A stretch of 64,000 bases of DNA. It comes from Blastococcus sp. TF02A-30. GTDB lineage: Bacteria; Actinomycetota; Actinomycetes; Mycobacteriales; Geodermatophilaceae. The position numbers and the translations under genes were made by a program. Below are positions 55,963 to 56,058 of this stretch, in pieces. Where the stretch lies: the NCBI RefSeq assembly GCF_003319185.1, contig NZ_QOHJ01000007.1, forward strand, positions 1 through 64,000, in the 5' to 3' direction. Each line of letters begins with the position of its first letter. Position 1 is the stretch's first letter. The notes under the pieces are model-generated. The model was not told the origin of the DNA and did no database searches. It saw nothing but the letters and a program-made list of their open reading frames with translations.

Positions 55963-56058
55963 TGGCGGAGGCGGACGGGAATCGAACCCGCCTGACCGAG
56001 CTGCTCGGTCACGTCGGCTTTAGAGGCCGCGGGGGCCACCAGACACCCTGACGCCTCC
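55963..56058 (-). tRNA. selC: tRNA-Sec with CUA (amber-reading) anticodon
   Basis: The 96-base gene ends in an encoded GCCA. It has a long variable arm (TGACCGAG/CTCGGTCA), T-arm GCGGGTTCGATTCCCGT and acceptor GGAGGCG/CGCCTCC. Seven clean acceptor pairs are followed by a U opposite C, so the 8+5 stacking may be realised as 7 plus a six-pair T stem. The anticodon loop reads CTCTAAA, giving anticodon CUA; standard bacterial tRNA-Sec has CTTCAAA with UCA. It should therefore read UAG, not UGA. selA, selB and selD all lie beside it. Confidence 0.95.

Follow-up and report, generated by a model that had tools for sequence, protein, structure and literature searches.

The window analysed here is a stretch of 64,000 nucleotides from Blastococcus sp. 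TF02A-30, a member of the Geodermatophilaceae (positions 1 to 64,000 of contig NZ_QOHJ01000007.1, assembly GCF_003319185.1). It carries a tRNA-Sec gene among genes of the selenocysteine (Sec) machinery:

52857..54602, minus strand: selB, Sec-specific elongation factor, 581 aa from MDVLATAGHVDHG (TIGR00475, 286.3 bits, cut-off 242.25)
54617..55933, minus strand: selA, L-seryl-tRNA(Sec) selenium transferase, 438 aa (TIGR00474, 428.1 bits, cut-off 267.9)
55963..56058, minus strand: tRNA-Sec gene, anticodon CUA, 96 nt, encoded GCCA (ARAGORN, Rfam RF01852 and the sequence itself)
56083..56721, plus strand: WYL-domain ORF, in the interval between the tRNA and selD (PF13280, 58.1 bits)
about 56786..57766, plus strand: selD, selenide water dikinase (TIGR00476, 384.7 bits, cut-off 125)

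ARAGORN finds a tRNA with anticodon CTA at 55963-56058 (-), which it labels tRNA-Pyl, and the Rfam model for tRNA-Sec (RF01852) matches at 55967-56058 (-) with 66.9 bits (gathering score 47, E 1.8e-11). The gene shows the traits of the Rfam family, namely a long variable arm, an extended acceptor plus T arm and G73 before the CCA of its GCCA 3' end. Its eighth acceptor pair reads as a U-C mismatch, as it does in the UCA-bearing relatives compared. The anticodon loop is CUCUAAA, and the anticodon is CUA in place of the UCA of canonical, UGA-reading tRNA-Sec. A preliminary description, made from the letters of the window, had claimed both this anticodon and the Sec-like body, and the two claims are borne out, the first of them exactly. 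A pattern built from the gene has a single match in the window and none in 100 shuffled versions.

The same description placed selA, selB and selD next to the tRNA, which holds for selA and selB; selD is separated from the tRNA by the WYL-domain ORF. The Sec machinery is present in this genome, as selA, selB and selD all score over their cut-offs. SelD carries Cys rather than Sec in its motif (GGGCACK), and its gene has no in-frame stop and probably starts a little upstream of 56786. Elsewhere in the window, a Guanidine-III riboswitch (60075-60139, -) stands directly before a gene for an SMR (small multidrug resistance) transporter (59752-60072, -), which is likely a guanidinium exporter, and a c-di-AMP riboswitch (ydaO/yuaA) lies at 8934-9090 (-, 77.5 bits).

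The preliminary description would have had to give way to a second tRNA-Sec with anticodon UCA in the same genome. We searched the whole assembly (4.13 Mb in 38 contigs, 99.99% complete) with the tRNA-Sec model and obtained 15 rows, two of them over the cut-off. ARAGORN identified the best eight as the window gene, which comes first, three tRNA-Ser, one tRNA-Tyr, one tRNA-Leu and two tRNA-Met; the second row over the cut-off, just above it, is a tRNA-Ser. No second tRNA-Sec was found among these eight, and rows 9-15 reach at most 26.9 bits.

A formate dehydrogenase gene with an in-frame UAG

Searching the genome with PF00384 gave six rows, one of which contains a TAG. The gene concerned encodes an actinobacterial formate dehydrogenase (FDH; NF041513) and lies on another contig than the tRNA:

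L015:9523-9525 (= G000:C38:57522-57524): in-frame TAG of the FDH gene, placed by NF041513 profile position 186

The half of the gene before the TAG matches NF041513 positions 2-185 and the half after it positions 187-1067, leaving the TAG to account for a single residue, that at position 186. In the three alignments shown with FDHs of solved structure, the TAG faces X, C and X of the motif ARI-[X/C]-HS, and two of these FDHs are named 'selenocysteine-containing'. The 60 codons preceding the TAG have a third-position G+C of 0.95 and those after it 0.97, and the gene itself stops at TGA. Downstream, an overlapping ORF has Fe-S domains and a match to FDH-beta below the model cut-off. The expectation of UAG-Sec selenoproteins, identifiable by an in-frame TAG at the Sec position followed by a hairpin, thus finds its case in this FDH, which is the sole selenoprotein gene found here and has TAG, not TGA, at the Sec column.

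This FDH is also the only UAG-Sec gene found in the genome. The UGSC family has no match in it (the control was empty, yet the same model matches in 54 of 112 genomes of the family), and none of its seven AhpC-family matches has an internal stop. A TAG-plus-hairpin model, which includes the stem of the FDH site itself, returned two rows with FDH first (28.5 bits); with 150 of its 3148 first-look candidates scored, it may have missed further UAG-Sec genes. The second row (E 4.3) was discarded, as its first codon is CAG and not TAG. When the window was scanned for readthrough by third-position G+C, four TGA candidates emerged and none with TAG; in L015 the scan picked out the FDH TAG, another TAG (7060) and one TGA (4933). 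The TAG at L015:7060 (+) is in frame, with coding-like composition on both sides, and may simply end a gene in the usual way. The scan also flagged several sites, TAG or TGA, in the loci of relatives.

The location of the FDH TAG also bears on whether the window tRNA might be a pyrrolysine tRNA, with UAG meaning pyrrolysine. With tRNA-Pyl it shares the CUA anticodon and the UAG codon, and ARAGORN labels it as such. The body of the tRNA is a different one, however, and matches the tRNA-Sec model over its gathering score; the gene lies beside selA, selB and selD, the in-frame TAG falls at the Sec column of FDH, and the sole PylS match in the genome, at 19.4 bits, falls far below the cut-off of 178 (in the control for this search, one of 14 control genomes was above the cut-off). 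As no PylS exceeds the cut-off, the tRNA-Sec model matches and Sec genes are adjacent, we rejected the pyrrolysine identity, which we regard as extremely improbable.

Downstream of the TAG, a putative hairpin with a 7-bp stem and a five-base loop, GGUCU (AGUCU in one sequence), starts 18 nt past the codon. We aligned 23 distinct 48-nt stretches from 31 FDH loci (this genome and L045-L074): all 161 cells of the stem are paired, and three of the seven pairs have changed on both sides. The covariation score of 0.236 is matched by none of 500 shuffled alignments (0.072), and sliding the partners brings it down to 0.020 or less, although this last control is flattered by the stem having been read from the same sequences. 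Folding energy is ordinary, with a z of -0.39 over 56 nt and of -0.49 for a 34-nt piece, whose best fold pairs differently. Support for the predicted hairpin comes from covariation and position and not from folding energy; it is the predicted binding site of SelB. In the four TAG-bearing UGSC loci of relatives that were read, a loop AGUCU or AGUGU lies at the same distance as the FDH loop.

As the only tRNA-Sec found has the anticodon CUA and the FDH gene has UAG at the Sec position, we predict with high confidence that this genome reads UAG as selenocysteine where the hairpin follows; UGA likely remains an ordinary stop. SelA, using selenophosphate made by SelD, would convert Ser-tRNA(CUA) into Sec-tRNA(CUA), which SelB would carry while binding the hairpin in the mRNA. 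At a hairpin-linked UAG, the competitor of the SelB-borne Sec-tRNA would be release factor 1 rather than release factor 2.

A tRNA with this anticodon could alternatively act as a general amber suppressor, inserting Sec or Ser at any UAG irrespective of a hairpin. Its anticodon would pair with any UAG, and TAG is rare as a stop: among the 26 window ORFs passing a strict composition filter, one ends in TAG and 25 end in TGA. SelB is present, however, and it is SelB, not EF-Tu, that delivers Sec-tRNA. In addition, the FDH and UGSC sites share the hairpin loop at the same distance, and the stem covaries in FDH. We therefore hold general suppression to be very unlikely and retain hairpin-dependent reading of UAG as Sec. 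The 25 ORFs ending in TGA also make UGA look like a working stop.

Anticodons and Sec codons in the Geodermatophilaceae

We compared the tRNA-Sec genes of relatives, as the preliminary description had proposed. A tRNA-Sec was detected at E 1e-10 or better in 108 of the 112 Geodermatophilaceae genomes. There are 110 such genes, of which 102 (in 101 genomes) have the anticodon CUA and eight (in eight genomes) UCA. The UCA genes belong to seven genomes of the sister genera g5, g6 and g7, and to Geodermatophilus sp. LHW52908 (G058), which has both anticodons. One genome (G036) carries two CUA genes, on contigs C25 and C168, and is possibly a mixed bin.

The codons of the target genes agree with the anticodons. 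FDH NF041513 gives 124 matches in 100 of the 112 genomes, and 118 of them (98 genomes) cover profile position 186. According to the search table, all 118 contain one TAG and no TGA; the TAG was read in the sequence in 31 loci (this genome and L045-L074), always in the context ARI-TAG-HS. The six remaining matches begin past position 186. Four have no stop and two are in G079, one with two TGA and one partial with TAG; in L083 (G079), the first FDH copy is missing the region surrounding the Sec site, where it also changes frame. Two genomes, G097 and G098 (72% and 80% complete), have an FDH covering position 186, and no tRNA-Sec was found in them. UGSC gives 95 matches in 54 genomes, 72 with one TAG, 23 stop-free and none with TGA, and the TAG is at the U of UGSC in all four loci read. 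The stop-free form is the one present in the UCA genomes G066 and G072.

In the nine genomes of g5-g7, no NF041513 FDH was found at the threshold used. One of the UCA genomes, G074, has part of another FDH (TIGR01591, 498 bits over 416 of 672 positions, the whole-protein cut-off being 666), with TGA in the Sec context NRT-TGA-HAPS. The letters GGUCU lie at the same distance after this TGA (L298) as in the TAG-bearing FDHs, and the best predicted fold of the stretch is not the expected hairpin (z 0.11). G070 and G071 each have a match with one TGA, and G072 has one with five TGA.

Beyond these genomes, a public scan for the CUA tRNA (one genome per species) returned 92 stretches, with a pattern blind to CUA tRNAs that have other loops. 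Among the 80 listed, 78 are full-length tRNA-Sec of the same type and one (L185) is cut at a contig end; an 'Anaerolineae' match (L178) was dismissed, as ARAGORN does not recognize a tRNA in it. Titles among the matches listed are Blastococcus, Geodermatophilus, Modestobacter, Klenkia, Trujillonella, Goekera and 'Geodermatophilaceae bacterium', and tRNAs of the same type also occur under the odd titles Jatrophihabitans, Frankiales and 'Bacillus sp. AZ43'. Four public records (L110, L125, L162, and L181) hold a tRNA letter-identical to that of the window.

This distribution decides against a further reading, in which the CUA tRNA would be a defunct gene copy or a sequencing error and the TAG the sign of a broken FDH gene. 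Such tRNAs are rare in general, and nothing further speaks for it. A sequencing error in the anticodon, which the preliminary description had named as a possible refutation, is excluded in practice because the same anticodon occurs in relatives and in the four identical records. Conservation refutes the broken gene as well, as one TAG is found in every FDH match covering the Sec column, and third-position G+C is high on both sides of the TAG. We see next to no chance that this reading is correct.

To place the anticodons on a tree, SelA was sought in 88 loci, of which eight were skipped (short or with a stop) and eight gave no hit. In the resulting tree of 72 rows, obtained by a quick search with no bootstrap and containing G058 twice (L084 and L121), the 66 CUA rows form one clade with an SH-aLRT of 100. 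Its sister is formed by the family's four UCA rows, and two plasmid rows, from beside UCA tRNAs, form the outgroup. As the anticodon of the tRNA matches the codons of FDH and UGSC family-wide and the CUA lineages form one SelA clade, a single switch from UGA to UAG is probable, later than the divergence from the UCA-keeping sister genera. Going from UCA to CUA takes two base changes, and the closing pair of the anticodon stem changed from T-A to C-G alongside. The switch would have moved Sec to a rarer stop codon, with less conflict with termination.

A genome with two tRNA-Sec anticodons

Geodermatophilus sp. LHW52908 (G058) has a native CUA tRNA beside selA, selB and selD, a TAG in FDH (read in L050) and a UGSC match with one TAG. 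Of 39 200-mers sampled from contig C11 of G058, all 39 occur in L121, the record of that strain. The distance from the tRNA to the selD match is only about 50 nt in this genome, compared with the window, where the WYL-domain ORF lies between. Contig C17 (69 kb), assigned to this genome, additionally carries:

L075:1169-1263, minus strand: tRNA-Sec with anticodon UCA (81.8 bits)
L075:1579-2157, plus strand: AhpD-like ORF with an in-frame TGA (TIGR01926, 112.6 bits, cut-off 81.8)

The AhpD-like ORF, of a peroxidase-related family, is about 300 nt from the UCA tRNA-Sec, and its TGA occupies the place of the second (catalytic) Cys of a CxxC motif. A short hairpin after the TGA has ordinary energy (z -0.26). 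The other rows of this protein in the family show no stop. Of the 120 database homologues listed, 15 were aligned: eight have C at the site, six W and one L. The six with W at the catalytic Cys column (residue 98 in A3) are P0003, P0004, P0006, P0007, P0008, and P0014; our guess is that their W is a TGA read by code 4, in which case they could be hidden UGA-Sec proteins.

The first 7.5 kb of C17 have a G+C of 0.61-0.68, compared with 0.70-0.76 beyond, and this low-GC stretch contains transposases of the ISAs1 and IS110 types. For two ORFs of the stretch (L075:2916-4508 and 4496-5320), neither Pfam nor NCBIfam gave a match. Searching viral contigs revealed no relative of the AhpD-like protein, and searching plasmids gave 327 records, all below 60% identity. 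A single SelB exceeds the cut-off in G058. We tentatively suggest, as a serious possibility for which we would not claim the better chance, that two Sec codons are used in this cell: UAG through the CUA tRNA (FDH and UGSC) and UGA through the UCA tRNA (AhpD-like protein), with one SelB serving both and UGA reading regained by lateral transfer. The literature searched (open-licence papers) yielded no account of a bacterium with two Sec codons.

Known systems and implications

Selenocysteine at UAG in the Geodermatophilaceae goes back to Mukai et al. in 2016, a study which reportedly included 75Se labelling in members of the family. Bacteria encoding Sec with other codons had been reported earlier (PMC5330540). 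In the passages of that paper concerned, UAG-Sec of the Geodermatophilaceae is credited to Mukai 2016 (Angewandte Chemie), three genomes of the family are given a tRNA-Sec with CUA, and the matching codon is said to occur in FDH, in UGSC and, for Blastococcus saxobsidens DD2, in AhpC. The published report of an amber-decoding tRNA-Sec to which the preliminary description refers is real. A second article mentions in passing that some bacteria use UAG (PMC8124441), and a third has Mukai 2016 in its reference list alone, the word UAG being absent (PMC8762117). As UAG-Sec in the Geodermatophilaceae is already in print, as far as these passages of PMC5330540 describe it, the core finding is known and this genome is one more case. 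The family census, the UCA sister genera, the SelA clade and the two-anticodon genome are added here, and may overlap with Mukai 2016. Two tRNA-Sec genes per genome are not new in themselves, as eight such bacterial genomes are reported in PMC5330540, in passages that do not mention different anticodons.

The system described in those sources (Mukai 2016; Santesmasses et al. 2017, PMC5330540, in the passages concerned) is that of the same family, with the same anticodon and the same FDH target and codon. It differs in that relatives were reported with UGSC and AhpC, whereas this genome has no UGSC and no stop-bearing AhpC match. Canonical UCA tRNA-Sec, as in g5-g7 and in two actinobacterial plasmids, shares the overall architecture, the long variable arm and the G73-CCA end, and the window tRNA differs from it by the CUA anticodon and by C-G for T-A as the closing pair of the anticodon stem. 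On these plasmids, from Arthrobacter and Tsukamurella, the order selD, tRNA, selA, selB is that found here, save for the WYL-domain ORF. Both plasmids (Arthrobacter pYA7-1a, typed as conjugative, L201; Tsukamurella plasmid 17, L202) hold fdh, selD, tRNA-Sec (UCA), selA and selB together, with the tRNA-Sec absent from the gene table, and could pass on the Sec trait as a unit.

At the UAG, a standard gene caller would end the reading frame, leaving this FDH in two parts. For this reason, and because ARAGORN labels the tRNA as tRNA-Pyl, the CUA genomes of the family are prone to annotation errors of these kinds. The family holds both sides of the codon switch, with UCA sister genera (one genome of which has an FDH with TGA) and a CUA clade in which the tRNA and the FDH and UGSC codons have moved. 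If the proposed use of two codons in G058 is true, its lineage regained UGA reading after giving it up. The two-anticodon genome would allow a direct test of whether a single SelB is able to insert Sec at two different stop codons.
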